Positions 6,907 to 39,349 of a stretch of 46,597 nucleotides of DNA are shown here, in pieces. This DNA is from an uncultured Elusimicrobia bacterium (GTDB taxonomy: Bacteria > Elusimicrobiota > Elusimicrobia > Elusimicrobiales > Elusimicrobiaceae): the NCBI GenBank assembly GCA_947306425.1, contig CAMZGO010000010.1, positions 1 through 46,597 of the forward strand, written 5' to 3'. The position numbers were made by a program, and so were the translations under genes. Every line of letters begins with the position of its first letter. The first letter of the stretch is position 1. The notes below the pieces were generated by a model. That model had not been told where the DNA came from. It made no database searches and worked only from the letters and a program-made list of their open reading frames with translations.

Positions 6907-7470
6907 TTATTTCAAGGAGTAACTTCGATATGAATATGAAAGATCATTATTCGGTGTCCAAGTATTACCCACAGATCCTTTAGTTCCTAAAGAAGAACAT
7001 AAGCGATTTGCCCTTTTATTGTTCTCTCGTGCTAAACATCTGCCACCACGTCGCACCGTCTTATAGTTTTTTCCAAATAAATTTTCGACATAAATAATGG
7101 AAGCATCATTTTTTCCACAATTTATTAAGCCACTATGACTACTGCCCGAATTAGACATACAGCAAAACATATCCTTATTTTGAACACAATTTATCATATT
7201 ATCACTCTTAACTTTTATAAAGTCATTTGGCATAGTAAAAGATAAATTTTCAAATTTCTGTGTAGCAACTCCATGAATCATGTAGTATTCATCATAAGCA
7301 TCACGAAGTAAAGCAACAATCGATTGTAACTTGGCAAAGGTTGCTTTGTCTACAGACAATTGATATCGGGGCAAAGCAATAGCCGCCAAAATACCGATAA
7401 TTAAGACAACGACTAACAATTCTATAAGAGTAAAACCCTTATCTCGTTTCTTTTTATTTACTTGTTTCAT
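6907..7470 (-). CDS. Type IV pilin-like protein, copy D
   Basis: The 187-aa protein has a basic leader (MKQVNKKKRDK), prepilin peptidase site GFTLIELL and hydrophobic helix VVVLIIGILAAIALPRYQL. The globular domain is rich in Cys (NCVQNKDMFCCMSNSG, NCGKND, RCLAREN, RLCSSLG) and ends in an aromatic/Ser motif YRSYSLK. GGAGAAATAAA precedes the ATG. The gene stands alone, with unrelated genes on both sides. Its leader (leader D) is the longest of the four and is separated from the gene by a GC-rich repeat. Confidence 0.9.
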   Translation of the reverse strand: MKQVNKKKRDKGFTLIELLVVVLIIGILAAIALPRYQLSVDKATFAKLQSIVALLRDAYDEYYMIHGVATQKFENLSFTMPNDFIKVKSDNMINCVQNKDMFCCMSNSGSSHSGLINCGKNDASIIYVENLFGKNYKTVRRGGRCLARENNKRANRLCSSLGTKGSVGNTWTPNNDLSYSYRSYSLK

Positions 7471-7650: not shown

Positions 7651-7847
7651 TAAAAAACGGCCGATATACTTAAGCCGGTTAGTCGCCTCTCAAATATAAC
7701 AGCCGTAGTTTGTCTTAATAACAAACATTAAACACAAAACCCACGGGTAATTAGTCCGTAAATTTTGTGTTCATACGACTGTTTTCGGAGACTAACCGTT
7801 TCACTCTTAAGCGAAGGCATTATGCAAAAGCATAATTCCAAAAACAG
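7651..7847 (-). promoter_or_regulatory. Structured leader D of pilin D: P1-P2-P3 domain plus antiterminator/terminator
   Basis: RNA sense. P1 is CTGTTTTTGG (7847-7838) with CCGAAAACAG (7788-7779). It encloses P2 (ATTATGC/GCATAAT, 7836-7819) and P3 (TTCGCT/AGTGAA, 7815-7800). Antiterminator: AACAGTCGT (7783-7775) with ACGGCTGTT (7706-7698), enclosing two extra hairpins (AACACAAAA/TTTTGTGTT and TTTGTT/ACAAA). Terminator: ACGGC (7706-7702) with GCCGT (7661-7657) and inner ATAT and TTGAG/CTTAA pairs, then TTTTTT. The terminator loop holds GACTAACCGGC (7684-7674), complementary to linker 1 GC (7818-7817) plus linker 2 CGGTTAGTC (7798-7790). A -10 TATACT lies at 7907-7902. Confidence 0.8.
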
Positions 7848-7918
7848 ATTTAAATTGTTTTAGGGTTTTTAGCCCTTATAAAAAAATTAACCTCTAAACT
7901 TAGTATATCATTTTTTTG

Positions 7919-11185: not shown

Positions 11186-11806
11186 TTATATAACCGTGGG
11201 ATATGCAATAACTAATTTATAAGCACCCAGGGTTTGGGTTTCAAAAGCGATTTTAGGGCTGCCTTTTAAAGCCCAAATATCCAATGTTTTACCAAAAAAT
11301 TGAATGTTACCGTTAATAATTTTTATTTCCTTTGTGGGTACGGTTAAACCAATTTGTAACAGTTTTAACACAGCCTCTTTTTTAGCCCAAAGTTCCGTTA
11401 AATAAACAGGGGTATTGGCTGCTATTTCTTCCTTAAAGAAATATTCATCAGCCCAACCTTTAGGGCGCGGTTCGATTTCTTCCAAATCAATACCTATCAA
11501 ATCCCCTGTAAGTGAAATGGCAGCGGCAGCATAATCTCCGCGGTGAGATATTGAAACAGTTAATTGATTCCCACCTTCCACTTGCAAGACAGGGGCTCCG
11601 TTTCGGTCATTTTTAACCTGCATTTTAGTCATCGGAAAAGTAAAAAATTCCGAAGCAAGTTTTTTCGCGGCATAACGGCCTGCAAGCCATTCTTGCGCAC
11701 GTTTGGGAACTTCAAATTTTTTATATTGTTTAAGTTCAAAAGAAGTTAAAAAATCCTCCGCCTTTGGGGTATCTTTTGTCTCTACTACTAAGTAACGATA
11801 GTTCAT
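11186..11806 (-). CDS. 4'-phosphopantetheinyl transferase (Sfp/AcpT superfamily)
   Basis: The product is about 206 aa from the ATG at 11806, which follows AGGAGATAAT; the longer frame runs into the megasynthase. It has the two magnesium/CoA motifs of the superfamily: GIDLEEIEP (G-x-D-x-E) and ELWAKKEAVLKL (W-x-x-K-E-A), plus SISHRGDYAAAA (family ...SHs...vavA). It transfers phosphopantetheine from CoA to carrier proteins. Its position 8 nt after the megasynthase gene makes that ACP the expected substrate, although the ACP has Thr at the usual attachment serine. Confidence 0.9.
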   Translation of the reverse strand: MNYRYLVVETKDTPKAEDFLTSFELKQYKKFEVPKRAQEWLAGRYAAKKLASEFFTFPMTKMQVKNDRNGAPVLQVEGGNQLTVSISHRGDYAAAAISLTGDLIGIDLEEIEPRPKGWADEYFFKEEIAANTPVYLTELWAKKEAVLKLLQIGLTVPTKEIKIINGNIQFFGKTLDIWALKGSPKIAFETQTLGAYKLVIAYPTVI

Positions 11807-11814
11807 ATTATCTC

Positions 11815-14800
11815 CTAACGGCCTAAACCGCCTATAGTTTGGAAGTCCTTTACTTCCGCCCACAAATCAAATTTTTCATCAAAAATAAAAGCATCAAAAG
11901 AACTTTTACCTTCAATTGTTTTGTCATTATATTTGGCATATACATAAAGTTTTTGCGGTGTTGTTTGCCCTTGGTGGTAAAAACGTATTTTTGATATATA
12001 TTCCGGCAAAGTAGCATACCCTTCTACGGCATAATCCCTATAACCGCAAGCCTGAAACATTGCTTCAGTTAAAAGCGGTGCGGTAAGCATAGGATAACTC
12101 TGACCCTCAAACAAAGGGGCATTTGGTGTCTGATATAAAGCTAAAACAGAATCTTGTTCAATTTTTAAAATACCGGCTAAGACTTGCAAACTCGGACCTT
12201 GAAAATAACCTTTGTAAGTATCTTCTCTTGACACTGCAAAAGTGTTAGGGATAACAATATTATTTTTAATATTATCCCAAGAAGTTTCAAAATTTTTCAA
12301 ATTTTCGGCTGTAAAATGGCAACGGGTATTCCCCATTTTTATACCTTTACTGTTAATGAAATCAGATTCTATTTCCAATCTCATGTTACTTCCTTCTTTT
12401 TCCGCTTTCAAGCGTACGGTAATTGGGTTTTGCCTAATCAATTTTACCGGCAGATAAAAATGTACTTTTTCAAAACCAGAAGGTATTTGTCCTGTTAAAA
12501 TATTAGATATTTCGGCAAAACCCTCCAAACCGAACACACCCGCAAGAAAAGGTACTTTTTCAATGGAATAGTCCTGTAAAAACGGCTGATTTGCGGTAAA
12601 GGTCTTTTCTGTTAAAACATAATTTTCGGTTTTTTCTTTTAACTCTCCGGCAAAGAAATTATTTAAATTATCTGTTTCATCAGACGGTATTTCTTGTTTT
12701 CCTTCCGGTTGTTCCGTATTTTGTACTTCGGGCATAAGCGGGGCTTCACCCTTATTTTCAAAAAAGGTTTCCTCTTGTAGCAGGGGTATTTCCTGCCCAT
12801 CTATTTTTTCTTCTTTATCTGTAATTACTTCCGTTATTTCAGTTGTATCTTCTTCATTATATTCTGCTTGGGATATTTCCTTTTCCTCTTGTTTTTCCTC
12901 TTGAGGTTCGGGGGTATTTTCTTCATTTACTTCTTGTATTTCTTCTTGTTTAGTTTCTTTTGTTATCGGTGTTGTTTGTTCTTGAACTGTTTCAAATTGT
13001 TCTTCGCAATCAAAACGAATTTGTTTATCTTGGTCTAAAGCAGAAGAATTAGCCAATATAACTTCTTGGGCCTTACCTTTTAGAATTTCATCTAAAACCA
13101 AACTTAAATATAAGTCTTTAGATAAACTTTTTCCGCCTTCTTTTTTAAACAAATTTTCTTCAAAAACAGGGCTTGAAATGTTGACACCTCTATAACCCAG
13201 CATTGTCAAAGTATATACAAGTTGACTCAAATAACCTTCCGCACTTGCCCTAACACTCTGCCCAGAGGCACCAAATTTGCTTATTAGAGAAGTATTAAAA
13301 AGGTAAAAACCGCCGTCTTTCACAAAATTAAAAGTCAAGAAATTTGATATTACTGAAACAATATTATCAAAATTCTTCCCACTTAAATCAAGTAGGTGGA
13401 AAAAACCGTCAACTCTGCCATATTTATTTCTTATCTTAAAAATTGTTTCCCTTAACTTAACACTGTTTCCTAAATCGGTACAAAAATATTCCGGCTGGCT
13501 GCCAAGTGCCTCAATTTTCTGAACGTTTTTATATATGGATACCGAGGAATCTATATCAGCAAAGTATTTCATTAAATCATCTTCCGCGATATTCGGGGCT
13601 TGTTCTTTTAATTTTTGGCTTAATTTCGCCTTTTCCGCTTTTAATTCTTCAGTATTTAAAGTGGCAAGATAGGGGGAATTTTCAAATATTTCCTTTTCTC
13701 CGATTAAAATTATGCGTGTTTTAAAGGTCTCCGCTATTTTTAATGCTAAATCTGCTCCGAGCCCTGTATCTGCACCGGTAAAAGCAAGGGTTTTGCCTTC
13801 CAAGGACAGATTCCCCCCTTCAGCAAATTTATATGGCAAATAAAGAACTGTTTGCCTATTTTCATTTTCATAAGAAATTAAACAACGGTCGTCCCCTTTT
13901 AAAATTTCAAACAAAGTTTTTTGCGCCATTACTTCCGGTGTAGTTCCCTTTGAAAAAGCAATTATTTTACTGTTTAAACCAATCCTTTCATAAAGTTCTT
14001 TTCTAAAACAAAGGGCTGCCCCTAAAACGATACCATTTGCAGGGTTCTCTTTACTTATAAAGGGCAAAGTACCGTCATTTTCAAATACGGTTGTAAGAAA
14101 AGTATCGGAATTAGACCTGTCGCTCAAATCATGCTCAAACATTTTAATTGCGAGCATTAAAGGTCTTAAATATTCTTCCTGTTCCATTGTTGGATTTTGT
14201 TTTTTATCATATTTTTTAAAAGAACAAGGCAACAAATAAACTATGCCCTGAATCGGGGCTTGATTTTCTTTAGCAAATGTTTCCAAAGCAGTCTGGGTTT
14301 CCTGTAAGGATTCCCAAGAAATCATACTTACATTTTTGCCCCTGGTTTTTAATTTAGTAAAAATATGGGTTTTAAGGCCTTCCATTTTAAAGGCATCGTT
14401 GTAGGCTTTTGTTAAAGCAGCATTATCAGAAAATATTAAAACAGTCCTTTTAGGGGACAAATTCCGATTTGCTTCTTCCGAAAGAGGGGCATCAGCCAAA
14501 ACAGGCAAAAAGCGGTGTTTTGTATTTTCCTGATTAATATCAGGCTCAACGGATTCACCCGTATCAGGAACAATAGGCTGGGTTTCCTCTTTAACTTGAA
14601 TATTCTCGCTTTGCTTAATTGCTTGTTTTGGTGCTTCCTGTTTTTCTTCCTCTTGTTTGGGGAAAGGGTCTTCTGCTTTTGCAGAAGGGGTTTCTTTTTC
14701 TTGCTTAGGGGCATTATTTTCTTTACTTGTGTTTGACATAATATAGTTAATACAATGCCTTATTGTAGGATAATCCTTTAACACCAAACCATTGTTTGAA

Positions 14801-17800
14801 GTTATACCGTACTTTTCTTGCAAGAGGATAAGCATTTCCGCCTGCTTTACGGTATCTATACCGAGTTCTGCTTCCATATCAACATCAAGTTCAAGCATAT
14901 CTTCTGGGTAGCCGGTCTTTTGAGATATAAGAGTTACAACTTCTTTAGTTACGGTTGATTCATCTAAAGGTTTGATTTCTTTTTTAGGTTCGGGTTTCGG
15001 CTCCTGTTTAACTTCGGCAGGCGGTTCTGTTTTGGGTTTCTCTTGTTTAACGATACTATCAACACCCAATTTTTCTTGTAAAGTTTTTAGTAACACTTGT
15101 GCCTGTTCTTTGGTTAAATTCAAAGTACAATTTATATTTTCTATTGTGATATTACCGGCTTTGATTTGTGTGGTTGCCGGAACTTTAACCTCTCCCGCTT
15201 TTTTAGGCATAACGGCATTAACAAAAGCAGGGTTATAGAGGGTATCATCTTTTTCCAAATCGGTTTTACTCCAATCAACTTCAATACCTGCAGCGGCAAG
15301 GTTTGCCATCAAATCATTAAATTCTGTTATACCGCCGCGTTTTGGATGGTTGGAAGCGAGAACACGTATATCTTTTTTATCTTCTAAAGTATTTGTTACA
15401 AAGGCACTCAAAATACGTTTCGGGCCAACCTCAATAAATAAGCGTACGCCGCGTTCATAGGCAAGTTCTACTTGTTTAATCCACTCAACGGAACTCATAA
15501 TTTGTTCAACCATAGTATCTTTAATTGCCTGAACATCACTTGGGTAAAAATCGGCAGAAACATTTGACGTTATAGGTAAAACAGGGGCATTAAAATGCAA
15601 AGTATCCAAAAATTTCCTATACCCTTCTGCCGCGGGCCTGACTATAGCGGAGTGGAAAGCGTGGGATACCGGTATAATAACCGCTTGCATACCCATACTG
15701 TTAAACATTGCGACGGCATCATCTACTGATTTTGACTCCCCGGCAATTACGGTTTGCGTAGGGCAATTTTTATTTGCTACAGCAACATAACCGGCAATTT
15801 TTTTAAGTTCCGGCTCCACTTTATCAGCTCTTGCAGCAACGGCAGCCATTTTACCGTTATCTTTATTATCAAGGCCTGCCATAGCGCTGCCGCGCATAGT
15901 AACTGCTTTTAAAGCATCTTCAAAAGATAAAATTCCGGCGGCAACAGCTGCACCGTACTCGCCTAAACTATGGCCCATAGTTACATCAGGTTTAATACCG
16001 AACTGATATAAAAGACGCATCATTGCGACATTTGCTGTTAAAATTGCGGGCTGTGTGATTTCGGTTCTCTTAATACCTTCTTCGCGCTCTTTAAGTTTTT
16101 CTTTACCTTCGCCTGGTTTGGACCATATAACTTCGGTTAAAGAAACACCGGCAAGTTTCATTGAAATATTATCGGCTTCTTCAAAAGTATCGCGAACAAT
16201 TTTATATTTGCTGGCTAAGTCCTTCATCATGTCCACATATTGAGCCCCCTGGCCCGGAAACATAAAACAAACCTTAGGTTTTTGTGTGCTTGGGTGGAAT
16301 GGATAAATACCTTTCATTTTAAGGTACAGGGACTGTTCCTCCCACACATTTGCACCTGCGGCAATCTTGAGAAAATATGCAATCTTACTTTTAAGTTTTT
16401 CAGTATCTTCCGCATTTATTGATACGGCAAATTGGGCCCGCGGCGCTGTATGGTTTTTATAAGCATTTTTAATCAGATAAAATTTATCGTCCGTTACTTC
16501 TCTTGCGACTTTGTTAAGCAAATCAAAAAGTTCTTCTCTTGTAGGGGCAGAAAATACTAGCATATCTCCCAACAATTTTTCCTGTTCAACTAATAATTGA
16601 TAATTCATTTTATCCTCCACTTGCTTTGTTTGTGGTAAATTTTGTTTTTCTTCTTTTTCCTCTACATTAATGTTGTATACGTGTTTTGGGTCATATTCCT
16701 CTAAAGCAACATGAGCATTAGTTCCGCCGAAACCAAAGGCGGAAACATTTGCCCTTCTTAAATTTGTACTTTCCCAAACACGGGCACGAGTGTTTACTTT
16801 AAAAGGTGAATTTTGCCAATCAATATTTTTGTTAGGTTCCGTAAAATTTATTGACGGCGGCAAAACTTTGTTATGTAAAGCCAAAGCAACTTTAATCAAA
16901 GAAGCCATACCGGCATTTGCTTTGGTATGCCCTATTTGCGATTTCACTGAACCGAGGGCAATTTCCGTTTTTACATCCTTAAAAAATTCATTTAAGGCAG
17001 CCATTTCTGCCGCATCACCGACTTTGGTTGCCGTACCATGTGCTTCCATAAGGCTAATATCCTGCGGACCGTAATCAAGACCTTCAAAAGCATTTTTTAT
17101 GGCAAGTTTTTGGCCCTCGGGATTCGGGGCTGTAATGCCTTTACCTTTACCGTCGCTTGAAAGGCCGATTGAGCGAATTACGGCATAAATTTTATCTCCG
17201 TCCTTTTGGGCTTTGCTTAAAGGTTTAAGTAATAAGGCACCGGCACCTTCGCCCATAACAAAGCCGTTGGCTTTATCATCAAAAGGTCTGCTGCCGTCAG
17301 CAGATAAAGCACCGATTTTTGAAAATTTTACATAATGGCTTGGTGCCATCATAGGGTCAGAACTAACGCAAAGCGCCATATCAAATTTGCCAAGCCAAAG
17401 CCCGTCTAAAGCACAAGCTAAAGCAAGCAAAGAACTTGCACAAGCGGCATCTACGGAGAAACTGGTCCCTCTTAAGTTAAAAACATTTGCGATACGCCCT
17501 GCGATAACGTTGGGAAGTTGGCCTACCATAGTATCTTCGGTAGTTACAGGTAAAAAATTGTTTAGATTATCGCGGGTAGTGGCAATAAGTTCTTCACCTT
17601 GCTCTGCGGTCAAACTTTGGTAAGCAGTAGATTTCTTTAAGGCCTCCCAAATAAGCGGTTCATAAATACGCATATCGGAATATTCGTTGTTCGGTCCGCC
17701 GGCGGAATTTGCTGCAATTACTGCAATACGTGAACGGTCAAAATCTTTTTTATTATAGCCGCTGTCCTCAAGTGCCTGTGCAGCGACATCCAAAGCATAT

Positions 17801-18081
17801 TGTTGGGCCGGGTCAAGCTGCTTACCGACAGCTGGCGGAATCCTGTATTTAATGGAATTGAATTTATAGTCCTTCAAAAAAGCACCGATTTTAGAATAAG
17901 TTTTGCCTTCTGCATTATGGTCAGGGGAATAATAAAGTTTTGGGTCCCATACGCTTGGGGGAACTTCGGTTATTGAGTTTTTACCTGTTATGATATTTTG
18001 CCAAAATTCTTCCTTATTATTTGCATCGGGTAATAAAGCACCGATACCGATAATTGCTATGGGTTCACGATTTTTAGACAT
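11815..18081 (-). CDS. PfaA-like type I polyketide/polyunsaturated fatty-acid synthase, KS-AT-ACP-KR-DH
   Basis: The 2088-aa protein, by residue: KS about 1-460 with Cys214 (VDAACASS) and HGTATKVGD/IGHTKANAG histidines; AT about 605-920 with Ser705 (GHSLGEY); one ACP about 1045-1115; a Lys/Glu/Gln-rich linker to about 1190; KR about 1200-1680 with TGADTGLG near 1432; an acidic linker; a hotdog DH-like domain about 1800-2088. The order matches PfaA of PUFA synthases. KS and AT look active. The ACP has Thr1077 (LGIDTVKQ) where LGxDS carries the phosphopantetheine serine, KR has Arg1611 where the catalytic Tyr is expected (GQSVRASAEG), and DH has Tyr1838 in place of His (FLQDYSIEK). PfaB, C and D partners are absent here. 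AAGGAGTC precedes the ATG; first gene of a five-gene operon. Product unknown. Confidence 0.9.
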   Translation of the reverse strand: MSKNREPIAIIGIGALLPDANNKEEFWQNIITGKNSITEVPPSVWDPKLYYSPDHNAEGKTYSKIGAFLKDYKFNSIKYRIPPAVGKQLDPAQQYALDVAAQALEDSGYNKKDFDRSRIAVIAANSAGGPNNEYSDMRIYEPLIWEALKKSTAYQSLTAEQGEELIATTRDNLNNFLPVTTEDTMVGQLPNVIAGRIANVFNLRGTSFSVDAACASSLLALACALDGLWLGKFDMALCVSSDPMMAPSHYVKFSKIGALSADGSRPFDDKANGFVMGEGAGALLLKPLSKAQKDGDKIYAVIRSIGLSSDGKGKGITAPNPEGQKLAIKNAFEGLDYGPQDISLMEAHGTATKVGDAAEMAALNEFFKDVKTEIALGSVKSQIGHTKANAGMASLIKVALALHNKVLPPSINFTEPNKNIDWQNSPFKVNTRARVWESTNLRRANVSAFGFGGTNAHVALEEYDPKHVYNINVEEKEEKQNLPQTKQVEDKMNYQLLVEQEKLLGDMLVFSAPTREELFDLLNKVAREVTDDKFYLIKNAYKNHTAPRAQFAVSINAEDTEKLKSKIAYFLKIAAGANVWEEQSLYLKMKGIYPFHPSTQKPKVCFMFPGQGAQYVDMMKDLASKYKIVRDTFEEADNISMKLAGVSLTEVIWSKPGEGKEKLKEREEGIKRTEITQPAILTANVAMMRLLYQFGIKPDVTMGHSLGEYGAAVAAGILSFEDALKAVTMRGSAMAGLDNKDNGKMAAVAARADKVEPELKKIAGYVAVANKNCPTQTVIAGESKSVDDAVAMFNSMGMQAVIIPVSHAFHSAIVRPAAEGYRKFLDTLHFNAPVLPITSNVSADFYPSDVQAIKDTMVEQIMSSVEWIKQVELAYERGVRLFIEVGPKRILSAFVTNTLEDKKDIRVLASNHPKRGGITEFNDLMANLAAAGIEVDWSKTDLEKDDTLYNPAFVNAVMPKKAGEVKVPATTQIKAGNITIENINCTLNLTKEQAQVLLKTLQEKLGVDSIVKQEKPKTEPPAEVKQEPKPEPKKEIKPLDESTVTKEVVTLISQKTGYPEDMLELDVDMEAELGIDTVKQAEMLILLQEKYGITSNNGLVLKDYPTIRHCINYIMSNTSKENNAPKQEKETPSAKAEDPFPKQEEEKQEAPKQAIKQSENIQVKEETQPIVPDTGESVEPDINQENTKHRFLPVLADAPLSEEANRNLSPKRTVLIFSDNAALTKAYNDAFKMEGLKTHIFTKLKTRGKNVSMISWESLQETQTALETFAKENQAPIQGIVYLLPCSFKKYDKKQNPTMEQEEYLRPLMLAIKMFEHDLSDRSNSDTFLTTVFENDGTLPFISKENPANGIVLGAALCFRKELYERIGLNSKIIAFSKGTTPEVMAQKTLFEILKGDDRCLISYENENRQTVLYLPYKFAEGGNLSLEGKTLAFTGADTGLGADLALKIAETFKTRIILIGEKEIFENSPYLATLNTEELKAEKAKLSQKLKEQAPNIAEDDLMKYFADIDSSVSIYKNVQKIEALGSQPEYFCTDLGNSVKLRETIFKIRNKYGRVDGFFHLLDLSGKNFDNIVSVISNFLTFNFVKDGGFYLFNTSLISKFGASGQSVRASAEGYLSQLVYTLTMLGYRGVNISSPVFEENLFKKEGGKSLSKDLYLSLVLDEILKGKAQEVILANSSALDQDKQIRFDCEEQFETVQEQTTPITKETKQEEIQEVNEENTPEPQEEKQEEKEISQAEYNEEDTTEITEVITDKEEKIDGQEIPLLQEETFFENKGEAPLMPEVQNTEQPEGKQEIPSDETDNLNNFFAGELKEKTENYVLTEKTFTANQPFLQDYSIEKVPFLAGVFGLEGFAEISNILTGQIPSGFEKVHFYLPVKLIRQNPITVRLKAEKEGSNMRLEIESDFINSKGIKMGNTRCHFTAENLKNFETSWDNIKNNIVIPNTFAVSREDTYKGYFQGPSLQVLAGILKIEQDSVLALYQTPNAPLFEGQSYPMLTAPLLTEAMFQACGYRDYAVEGYATLPEYISKIRFYHQGQTTPQKLYVYAKYNDKTIEGKSSFDAFIFDEKFDLWAEVKDFQTIGGLGR

Positions 18082-19008: not shown

Positions 19009-19014
19009 TATAAT
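19009..19014 (+). promoter_or_regulatory. -10 box for leader C / pilin C
   Basis: TATAAT, 32 nt before the start of helix P1 of leader C. No good -35 hexamer is visible at 16-18 nt; TTACAA at 18982-18987 is 21 nt away. Confidence 0.5.
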
Positions 19015-19045: not shown

Positions 19046-19226
19046 TTTGTTGAAGTGTGGGGAAAGCCCACACTGAGCAAAGGAAGGTTAAAACTTCCCG
19101 CGCGAAATTGAGGTCAACAAGTGGTCGCCCACGTCCTGCCTATTCCTTTTTTTGGGATGGGAAGGCGGCGACTGTTTGTTAAGGGTTACCTCAATTTGCT
19201 TTTAACAGATAGGCCGCCTTTTTTAT
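19046..19226 (+). promoter_or_regulatory. Structured leader C of pilin C: P1-P2-P3 domain plus antiterminator/terminator
   Basis: P1 is TTGTTGA (19047-19053) with TCAACAA (19114-19120). It encloses P2 (GTGTGGG/CCCACAC, 19055-19073) and P3 (GGAAG/CTTCC, 19082-19098). The antiterminator is a 14-bp helix with G-U pairs, AACAAGTGGTCGCC (19116-19129) with GGCGACTGTTTGTT (19167-19180). Terminator: AAGGCGGC (19162-19169) with GCCGCCTT (19213-19220), inner TGTTAA/TTAACA, then TTTTTT. The apical loop holds ACCTCAATTTGCT (19188-19200), complementary to linker 2 AAATTGAGGT (19105-19114) followed by linker 1 AGC (19076-19078, extendable to AGCAAA). GGGTTA precedes the loop target, as in leader A. Confidence 0.82.
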
Positions 19227-19266
19227 TGCTTATCTGAAATAATCTCAAAAAACAGGAGAATAAAAA

Positions 19267-19800
19267 ATGGAAATACAAGAACGAAATCTCAAACAAGGTT
19301 TTACCTTGATTGAATTGCTGGTAGTTGTTTTGATTATCGGTATTTTGGCAAGTATTGCTTTGCCGCAGTATCAAATGGCAGTAACAAAGGCAAAAGTAGC
19401 AAGCATTTTACCTATAATGCGCCGTTGGAAAGATGTATTACAAGAATATAAATTACAACATGGTAGTTATGATGATGAAGAAGGTAATTCACCGGATGCT
19501 GCAACATTAGGTGTTAATTGGCCAAGTGATTGGGAATGTTGGAATGATGAACTAACAGATTGCGGAAATGATTATTGGGATGAGTGTATCGTTAATGAAG
19601 ACCTGACAGGTAATCTTTATTGTGAACATATGACAAGTGATGGTTGGTTTCGTATATTTATGTATCAATCTGATGAACCATATGATGAAGATTTACGTGG
19701 AATGACACTTTGTGGAGCCCAAGGTACAGAAAGCCATAAAATTTGTAAAGCACTCGGCGGTAAATTAGTTGACGGTCGTGATAATTTCTATAAACTTTAG
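19267..19800 (+). CDS. Type IV pilin-like protein, copy C
   Basis: The 177-aa protein has a short leader (MEIQERNLKQ), prepilin site GFTLIELL and helix VVVLIIGILASIALPQYQM. It is unusually acidic and Trp/Cys-rich (DWECWNDELTDCGNDYWDECIV). Residues after the helix (AVTKAKVASILPIMRRWKD) are nearly the same as in pilin E (22828-23364), so C and E are paralogues with diverged surfaces. AGGAGAATAAAA precedes the ATG. It is solitary, preceded by leader C and followed by a strong hairpin. Confidence 0.9.
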   Translation: MEIQERNLKQGFTLIELLVVVLIIGILASIALPQYQMAVTKAKVASILPIMRRWKDVLQEYKLQHGSYDDEEGNSPDAATLGVNWPSDWECWNDELTDCGNDYWDECIVNEDLTGNLYCEHMTSDGWFRIFMYQSDEPYDEDLRGMTLCGAQGTESHKICKALGGKLVDGRDNFYKL

Positions 19801-22827: not shown

Positions 22828-23364
22828 CTATAGCTCGTATACTAAACACCAATAAGAACTGCAAGTAGATTCCATCTTTTTACCTCCAAGTTTTTTGCAA
22901 TATTCTTCGCCCGCACGACGTGAAGCCTCACAAGTTGTTTTGTTGCGTAATTTTTCTACAGAGAAATCTGGTTGATACATAAATATGTCAAAAAATTCAC
23001 TATCACTTAAGGCATGATGGCAACGGACACTTCCTGAAGGTTTATCGGTTGTATCGTGAAAATTTACAGAACAACGCCAGTAATTATTAGAACATAAGGT
23101 ATAATTTCCGCAAGGCTTTTCTGTATCTGATTTTTTCCAATCGCTAGGCCATCTAGCATCAATTTCGGTGGCATTATAATCTCCGTTTACCAATTTATAT
23201 TCAGTATAAGCATCTTTAAATCTTCTCATAAGAGGTAATATACTTGCTACTTTTGCTTTTGTTACCGCCATTTGATATTGCGGCAAAGCAATGCCTGCCA
23301 AAATACCGATAATTAAAACAACCACCAACATTTCAATTAAGGTAAAACCTAATTTGTTTTTCAT
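22828..23364 (-). CDS. Type IV pilin-like protein, copy E
   Basis: The product is about 178 aa from the ATG at 23364 (AAAGGAGATTAT before it; the longer frame starts at a non-ATG codon). Prepilin site LGFTLIEML, helix VVVLIIGILAGIALPQYQM, then AVTKAKVASILPLMRRFKD shared with pilin C. The globular part has many Cys (PCGNYTLCSNNYWRCSV, RCHHALSD, TTCEAS, EYCKKLGGK, TCSSYWC). Unlike the four other pilins it has no structured leader. Its promoter spacer carries a 15-T run instead. Confidence 0.9.
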   Translation of the reverse strand: MKNKLGFTLIEMLVVVLIIGILAGIALPQYQMAVTKAKVASILPLMRRFKDAYTEYKLVNGDYNATEIDARWPSDWKKSDTEKPCGNYTLCSNNYWRCSVNFHDTTDKPSGSVRCHHALSDSEFFDIFMYQPDFSVEKLRNKTTCEASRRAGEEYCKKLGGKKMESTCSSYWCLVYEL

Positions 23365-23405
23365 ATAATCTCCTTTATACAATGTTTTTGTTTATTACAT
23401 ATTAA

Positions 23406-23437
23406 ATTATAGAAAAAAAAAAAAAAATAGATGTCAA
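23406..23437 (-). promoter_or_regulatory. Promoter of pilin E with a T15 homopolymer in the spacer
   Basis: Minus strand: TTGACA (23437-23432), spacer of 20 nt made of TCTA, fifteen T and C, then TATAAT (23411-23406). The spacer is about 3 nt longer than optimal and its length would change by slippage of the T-run, as in known phase-variable promoters. Confidence 0.8.
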
Positions 23438-38572: not shown

Positions 38573-39103
38573 TCAACGATAGACATAGTAACAACCGCCA
38601 TTTTCGCAAGTCCCTTTTTTGCGTCCTGTTTCTATTTGGCATAAACGGTTTGCCATATTAGAAGGGTCTATACCTATTACCCTACAAATGTGAGGTTTAT
38701 TAGTATCCCTATACACATAATATGATATAGTTTTTCCAAATATTTCCCTACTACAAGCAACAAAAAGACCTGTTTGTGAAAACCAAACGCTACAACTTAT
38801 ACCTCCGGCAACGGAGAAACTAAATTGTTGAGAATCAGAGTAAGTTCCCTTTATACCATCAAAAGAAATATCTAACTGAGTATATCTTGAAGGATAAACA
38901 TTATTAACCAAATAATAACGCTGTAAGGACTCTACTATATTTTTTGTAAAATTTTTTACCATGGTAAATTGGGTTCTGCCAACTGACATTTTATACTGCG
39001 GTATCGCAATTGCGGCAAGTATGCCAATTATTAAAACTACTACCAATAACTCAAGCAAAGTAAAACCTTTGGTATTTATTTTTTTGTTTTGTTTGTTTTT
39101 CAT
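38573..39103 (-). CDS. Type IV pilin-like protein, copy B
   Basis: The 176-aa protein has basic leader (MKNKQNKKINTK), prepilin site GFTLLELL, helix VVVLIIGILAAIAIPQYKM, and a globular domain with Cys in GISCSVWF, FVACSREIFG, HICRVIG, RLCQIETGRKKGTCENGGCYYVYR. Its order of features matches pilin A most closely (FTLLELL, RTQFTMVKNFTKNIVESLQRYYL versus KSRYTTGMNFAKAVKEAEERYWM). GGAGAAAAT precedes the ATG, identical to pilin A. It is solitary, under leader B. Confidence 0.9.
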   Translation of the reverse strand: MKNKQNKKINTKGFTLLELLVVVLIIGILAAIAIPQYKMSVGRTQFTMVKNFTKNIVESLQRYYLVNNVYPSRYTQLDISFDGIKGTYSDSQQFSFSVAGGISCSVWFSQTGLFVACSREIFGKTISYYVYRDTNKPHICRVIGIDPSNMANRLCQIETGRKKGTCENGGCYYVYR

Positions 39104-39148: not shown

Positions 39149-39304
39149 CAAATAAAAAGGCGACCTCTTTTTGGGGCTCTCAGAATGCCCAAAATGGAAA
39201 TCGCCTTCATATCAATAAAGATATGAAAAACGACTTCATTTTTAACTCTGAGAGCAACTAAATTTTTAGTCCACACCGTTCTTAACGGCCTTAAAAATAA
39301 AGTC
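39149..39304 (-). promoter_or_regulatory. Structured leader B of pilin B: P1-P2-P3 domain plus antiterminator/terminator
   Basis: RNA sense. P1 is GACTTTATTTTTAA (39304-39291) with TTAAAAATGAAGTC (39245-39232), 14 pairs with one G-U. It encloses P2 (CCGTT/AACGG, 39288-39276) and P3 (ACTAAA/TTTAGT, 39270-39257). Antiterminator: AAAATGAAGTCG (39242-39231) with CGATTTCCATTTT (39203-39191), one bulge, enclosing CATATC/GATATG. Terminator: AAGGCGA with TCGCCTT (39207-39201 and 39163-39157) plus inner TTTTGGGC/GCCCCAAAA, then TTTTTATTT. Its loop carries TCTGAGAGC (39184-39176), complementary to linker 2 GCTCTCAGA (39255-39247); two more G-C pairs can form with GG of linker 1. Confidence 0.8.
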
Positions 39305-39349
39305 AAAACGCAAATTGTTGTGTTTTTGCAAACACAGTACTGCTAAATT

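Follow-up and report, generated by a model that had tools for sequence, protein, structure and literature searches.

In transcription-attenuating riboswitches and T-box type leaders, helix P1 sequesters one strand of an antiterminator, and the antiterminator and the terminator are mutually exclusive structures upstream of the ribosome-binding site (RBS). Protein-dependent attenuators of like logic are those of PyrR and SacY/LicT, whereas in the copy-number attenuators of the plasmids pIP501 and pT181 an antisense RNA pairs with the nascent leader and decides whether the terminator forms, its specificity being set by variable complementary letters. Some pilin genes have GEMM/c-di-GMP riboswitches. 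We analysed the leaders of four pilin genes, A–D, in a 46,597-nt stretch of DNA (the window). This stretch is contig C10 in an Elusimicrobiota genome of 1.44 Mb and 99% completeness. As in riboswitch and T-box leaders, P1 of the four leaders sequesters an antiterminator strand, and the antiterminator and terminator are predicted to exclude each other upstream of the RBS; unlike these, they have neither a conserved ligand core nor a match in Rfam, and their antiterminator holds a private duplex. With the GEMM/c-di-GMP riboswitches they have in common that a pilin leader is predicted to act by attenuation, but no Rfam model matches them. Leaders A–D are members of one leader-RNA family (A, B and C divergent, D canonical) that is absent from Rfam. 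The family is real, large and lineage-restricted and, judged from its predicted folds, works like a transcription attenuator: an intrinsic terminator lies between promoter and gene, and a covarying alternative helix uses one of the terminator strands.

The full-length leader C (19046–19226, + strand) has a minimum free energy (MFE) fold of −72.6 kcal/mol, in which P1 encloses P2 and P3 and is followed by the terminator. The z score of the folding energy is −5.6, and none of 200 shuffled sequences was as low. In this OFF fold the 5′ strand of P1 (TTGTTGA, 19047–19053) pairs with its 3′ strand (19114–19120), and the adjoining segment, which we call the key (AAATTGAGG, 19105–19113), is unpaired. 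Its complement, key-prime (ACCTCAATTT, 19188–19197), is located in the loop of the intrinsic terminator, whose hairpin and T run span 19162–19224. Cut before the 3′ strand of the terminator, the RNA folds into the antiterminator, with the key paired to key-prime in a helix of 14 consecutive pairs, the number given in the preliminary description. The 5′ strand of this antiterminator (19105–19129) comprises the key, the P1 3′ strand and GTGGTCGCC; the 3′ strand (19164–19197) is common to the terminator 5′ strand and loop. The P2 (19054–19074) and P3 (19082–19098) hairpins are predicted in the full-length and in the cut RNA. That formation of P1 would release the terminator, as had been proposed, is in line with these mutually exclusive predicted folds. 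Upstream, a −10-like TATAAT can be read at 19009–19014; a search of the leader C promoter for a full sigma-70 consensus match found none. The RBS (19252–19258) and the gene for pilin C (177 aa, 19267–19800; PF07963, E 1.4e-8) follow on the same strand.

Leaders A, B and D are all on the − strand. A covariance model of the family (R1) that was built without A, B and C, but with D, recovers A, B and C at E values of 2e-6, 2e-5 and 2e-4, respectively, in a search of 175 kb; leaders B and C are not among the hits of the filtered whole-genome R1 scan. Leader A (1752–1948, R1 E 2e-6) forms P1 from 1891–1905 and 1826–1837, with the key at 1837–1845, key-prime at 1772–1780 and the terminator at 1752–1800, and precedes pilin A (1207–1731, PF07963). 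In leader B (39152–39331, R1 E 1.8e-5 and sequence), P1 (39291–39304 with 39232–39245) encloses P2 (39271–39290) and P3 (39257–39270); the key is at 39246–39255, key-prime at 39176–39185, the terminator at 39154–39208 and pilin B at 38573–39103 (PF07963). Leader D (7652–7881) is matched by R1 at E 2e-44, being part of the training set, and has the full set of canonical elements: P0 (7863–7875), P1 (7837–7847 with 7779–7789), P2 (7819–7836), P3 (7800–7815), the key (7790–7799), P4 (7730–7772), P5 (7708–7726), key-prime (7675–7686) and the terminator (7652–7706), upstream of pilin D (6907–7470, PF07963). The P4/P5 insert is missing from leaders A, B and C, which are therefore compact variants of the canonical form. 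Strand sharing, element order and RBS are thus as first described for A–D, in a family much larger than four. The claim that the leader sequences are unrelated holds between A, B and C, but fails for D, which belongs to a large set of obvious similarity (CTGTTTTTGGA ... TCCAAAAACAG ... ACGGCTGTTATATTTGGGTTA-key′-GGCTCAAATATAACGGCCGTTTTTT). Folding z scores are −7.4 for A, −6.9 for B and −8.0 for D, each with 0 of 200 shuffles as low. Since the full-length MFE fold is the antiterminator in A and B and the terminator state in C and D, the two states must be close in energy.

Searched for the pilin N-methylation domain, the whole genome gave 108 matches, mostly in scattered, solitary genes. We read the DNA upstream of all 108, and it falls into two main groups. 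Some 33 genes, A–D included, have attenuator leaders, and by a T-run criterion 56 have promoters with a T tract (14–16 T in 48 of the 56) between a TTGACA-like −35 and a TATAAT-like −10 element. The fifth pilin of the window (22828–23382, − strand) is of the latter kind; it has no attenuator leader and a 15-T promoter spacer at 23413–23427 (−). On sequence grounds these T tracts, found in about half of the pilin promoters (this one and 55 others, L001–L094), are candidates for very large-scale slipped-strand phase variation. We found no paper on leader RNAs or pilin phase variation in Elusimicrobia. In their upstream regions, several unrelated pilin loci (L002, L017, L024, L062 and L084) have a repeated element (...CTCGGCTTTCTCCCGCCC...TTTTTGACCATTAGGCC) in common that is longer than 100 bp. 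The window also contains what, by eye, is a 2088-aa ketosynthase/acyltransferase/ACP-like polyketide or fatty-acid synthase (11186–18081, −), adjoined by a small phosphopantetheinyl-transferase-like gene, also judged by eye.

All 33 pilin leaders have both a terminator and a competing antiterminator. Canonical leaders can be aligned well with each other, and in an alignment of 19 leaders the pairing is upheld by covariation, as the preliminary description had proposed for A–D: in eight helices (P0–P5 and T) 44 of 68 pairs vary on both sides and 89.8% of the cells are paired, a value reached by none of 500 shuffles. Counted separately, the antiterminator has 10 of 10 key pairs that vary on both sides, a covariation score of 0.418 (0.202 when shuffled; 0/500) and a pairing of 83.5%, versus 33–50% for control versions that were slid along the sequence.

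The genome has about 50–55 such leaders, of which R1 finds about 50. The model also finds leaders in all 17 further genomes of the same genus that were searched and in most of those of one further genus. In a sample of the phylum, 57 of 199 genomes carry them; these belong to two genera of the same family and to four genera in a distant family. When 85,000 species genomes were scanned for an exact pattern, ∼ 80 stretches came up, mostly titled Elusimicrobia or Elusimicrobiaceae and mainly from gut and rumen MAGs; most of the stretches with other titles have no R1 match. Phage records contain no match to leader C, and viral contigs no full-length leader match, the best being weak partial hits. 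The leader type is not specific to pilins, as had been assumed at first: ∼ 20 further leaders in the genome precede genes for a small TPR protein family, LicD, glycosyltransferases, SNase-type nucleases and a zinc-ribbon/TM2-like protein, and in the distant family leaders precede glycosyltransferase-like, lipoprotein-like and pilin genes (proteins judged by eye). Two leaders, L224 and L116, are nearly identical and have different downstream genes; the identity stops shortly past the terminator. Just 5′ of P0, a Shine-Dalgarno-like AGGAG followed by ATG-TAA or ATG-TAG is seen in L125, L081, L078, L036, L072 and others. As a general feature, a conserved start-stop (SD-ATG-TAA/TAG) at P0 was rejected, being present in 18 of 55 leaders here but in only 6 of 82 in relatives.

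The attenuator layout of the preliminary description stands, but the two features that are most unusual had been missed, a palindromic loop on P4 and a gene-specific key pair. The key is an 8–10-nt segment beside the P1 3′ strand, and its pairing with key-prime in the terminator loop lengthens the antiterminator. The duplex is below −7 kcal/mol in 232 of the 250 leaders parsed with R1, and several of the 18 failures are weak or reverse-strand hits; in the distant family the key pairs with key-prime in 27 of 29 leaders. Within this genome, cognate pairs have a mean duplex energy of −13.8 kcal/mol versus −3.3 kcal/mol for non-cognate pairs. Across four genomes 128 of 129 keys are distinct, and between paralogous leaders the scaffold is 40–80% identical (depending on the element) and the key 32%. 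We know of no precedent for a gene-specific pairing code in attenuators.

P1/P2/P3, the antiterminator and the terminator compete for common strands. One state would consist of P1, enclosing P2 and P3, and the intrinsic terminator; the other would be the antiterminator, which draws on the 3′ strand of P1 as well as the 5′ strand of the terminator and is lengthened by the 8–10-bp key:key-prime duplex. In predicted folds of transcripts that end after key-prime, key and key-prime are paired in 224 of 226 leaders, whereas in full-length RNAs they are paired in 26 of 226, the P1 and terminator state being on average 9 kcal/mol better. Because the antiterminator is favoured until the terminator 3′ strand appears, and P1 with the terminator usually thereafter, we infer that the choice must fall during transcription. 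Expression would then depend on timely pairing of the key with key-prime, and anything that occupies the key or stabilizes P1 would turn the gene off. We therefore read the leaders as one family of bistable, cis-acting transcription attenuators with a gene-specific RNA barcode, the effector possibly being RNA itself, and give this reading a probability of roughly two in three.

The second feature is confined to canonical members. Of 114 P4 loops in these leaders, 110 include a 4-mer that is self-complementary but varies in its letters (AATT, TATA, GATC, CATG, AGCT, TCGA, TGCA, CTAG, GGCC, GTAC); in leader D the apical loop is ACTAATTAC (7747–7755, − strand), with the palindrome TAATTA. A 6-nt palindrome is present in 31 of 47 distinct loops (5.3 expected by shuffling; maximum 12 in 2000 shuffles), an excess that is absent from L2, L3, L5, the P1–P4 joint and the key. 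In the distant family, 23 of 27 P4 loops are likewise self-complementary. The middle letters of a tetramer of the AATT or CATG type cannot pair within one hairpin, yet complementarity is kept with different letters, which suggests pairing between two molecules. Long palindromes are lacking in the compact leaders (A, B and C) and in a second P4 type; in the latter an ACC-GACG-GGT hairpin replaces the palindromic loop (L053, L060, L061:674-899, L132, L136, L137 and L138). Since the compact members (A, B, C and others) have no P4 loop at all, dimerization cannot be essential. The HIV-1 dimerization initiation site, a retroviral kissing loop, has a nine-nt apical loop with a six-nt palindrome and three conserved flanking purines (PMC4066764). 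Most canonical P4 loops likewise are nine-nt apical loops with a six-nt palindrome in the layout 2 + 6 + 1, and a self-complementary apical loop is found at a fixed place. The three flanking purines are not conserved (flanks are AC..C, CC..C or GC..C, for example). The P4 loops also differ from the viral site in that they belong to a bacterial mRNA leader, often have only the central 4 nt self-complementary, have many different palindromes and are absent from the compact members.

The alternative that survives best, although we consider it doubtful, concerns the keys: any complementary pair would work and keys would drift, while template switching at inverted repeats (quasi-palindrome correction), together with gene conversion of the scaffold, would preserve the complementarity of the arms. 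Gene conversion that homogenizes scaffolds could also give the keys an appearance of fast evolution. Neutral drift fits the finding that keys within a genome are as dissimilar as shuffled keys but not more so, that is, orthogonality beyond chance was not found. It also fits L154, whose scaffold is 98–99% identical to those of L178 and L224 (different genomes, same downstream gene), but whose key and key-prime are entirely different. As L154 and L178 have scaffold variants in common between the two arms, the arms of L154 changed together while the stretch between them did not. This exchange of key and key-prime alone also speaks for the barcode reading. A few mosaic leaders, in which key and key-prime are mismatched (L140, L228, L164, L271, L273 and L284), point the same way; they are recombinants or assembly chimeras, and the key-prime of L228 fits the key of L158 and that of L099/L166. 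Drift alone does not, however, predict the pattern seen among close relatives. Among 16 leader pairs from different genomes whose scaffold identity is 0.90 or more, 12 agree in their key, versus 0 of 33 within-genome pairs with a scaffold identity of at least 0.85 (29 of the 33 from one fragmented MAG, G009), in which a mean of 4.5 of 8 letters differ. Moreover, identical keys recur on different scaffolds, in about 18 pairs at background identity versus 2.8 expected for all pairs.

We think it unlikely that the switch depends on a lineage-specific RNA-binding protein that stabilizes P1 or the antiterminator, with the keys contributing pairing strength only. The conserved letters in P1 and in the P4 stem could be its binding site, but no candidate protein was identified, and private keys and palindromic loops would be left unexplained.

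Still less likely is a metabolite or second-messenger riboswitch, in which P1–P2–P3 would bind one ligand in all leaders and the letters of the key duplex would be irrelevant. The strand-sharing layout, the conserved letters in P1, AAUUU and the terminator, and the common surface theme of the downstream genes are what such a riboswitch would show. However, the unpaired positions are poorly conserved, which argues against a ligand-type switch: of some 105 unpaired columns, only 7–10 reach a conservation of 95% or more, the mean top-base frequency is 0.63–0.64, the P1–P3 junction, J2/3 and L3 are variable, and the highly conserved unpaired ligand core of a metabolite riboswitch was not found. 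The riboswitch analogy drawn in the preliminary description thus finds no support as far as a ligand-binding aptamer is meant. Its failure to match the core to a known class agrees with the Rfam search that it called for: only a tRNA passes the gathering thresholds in the window, the best hit below threshold at the leaders is preQ1-II on leader A (26.9 bits versus 47), and 17 further leader loci gave nothing. The c-di-GMP-I model (GEMM, RF01051) has no match in the genome, control genomes being equally silent. A helix indifferent to its letters should also not keep keys identical across genomes in near-identical leaders, yet let them differ between similar paralogs. Terminators upstream of genes are common, but ordinary intrinsic terminators or chance hairpins without regulation are a very improbable explanation, as no computed result favours them and they are at odds with z scores of −5.6 to −8.0, with covariation in eight helices and the antiterminator, and with hundreds of homologues that occupy the same position upstream of genes.

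For the bistable attenuator with its private key, the deciding signal is most likely RNA, to judge from the predicted folds. Until the antiterminator 3′ strand has been transcribed, the OFF state leaves most of the key unpaired (0.87); most of key-prime, in the terminator loop, is likewise free (0.78). Consequently, the terminated RNA has what it needs for pairing in trans with a second copy of its leader, which the read-through RNA lacks. A terminated leader would expose its key, key-prime and, in canonical members, the self-complementary P4 loop; by binding a leader that is just being transcribed from its own gene, it could let each gene keep its own ON or OFF state, and the private key would insulate each gene from its paralogs. 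This arrangement suggests gene-specific self-reinforcing states. We tentatively speculate, at odds that we put well below even, that the leaders form a barcoded, self-recognizing RNA memory: terminated leaders would dock on nascent leaders from their own gene and maintain termination in these, read-through RNA with key and key-prime paired would be inert, and ∼ 50 surface genes would hold their ON or OFF states without DNA change, insulated by private keys that diverge after duplication. Like the pIP501 and pT181 attenuators, such a device would rely on pairing of a trans RNA to the nascent leader (here a proposal), with specificity from variable complementary letters. Unlike them, the Elusimicrobiota leaders are chromosomal, occupy dozens of loci per genome, have no antisense gene and carry the complementary letters within the same leader. 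A genome scan for orphan, key-bearing half leaders as trans RNAs found none except terminator-like or decayed pieces.

Even if the keys act only in cis, the family offers a bistable RNA in several hundred natural variants, and its orthologous leaders allow the compensatory replacement of a whole helix to be studied. If the leaders are one attenuator class, present in dozens of copies in reduced gut genomes and each with its own pairing code, they would provide gene-by-gene control of a large surface repertoire of pilins, glycosyltransferases, LicD and TPR proteins. If the keys act in trans, the leaders would constitute an RNA-only, gene-specific epigenetic switch.
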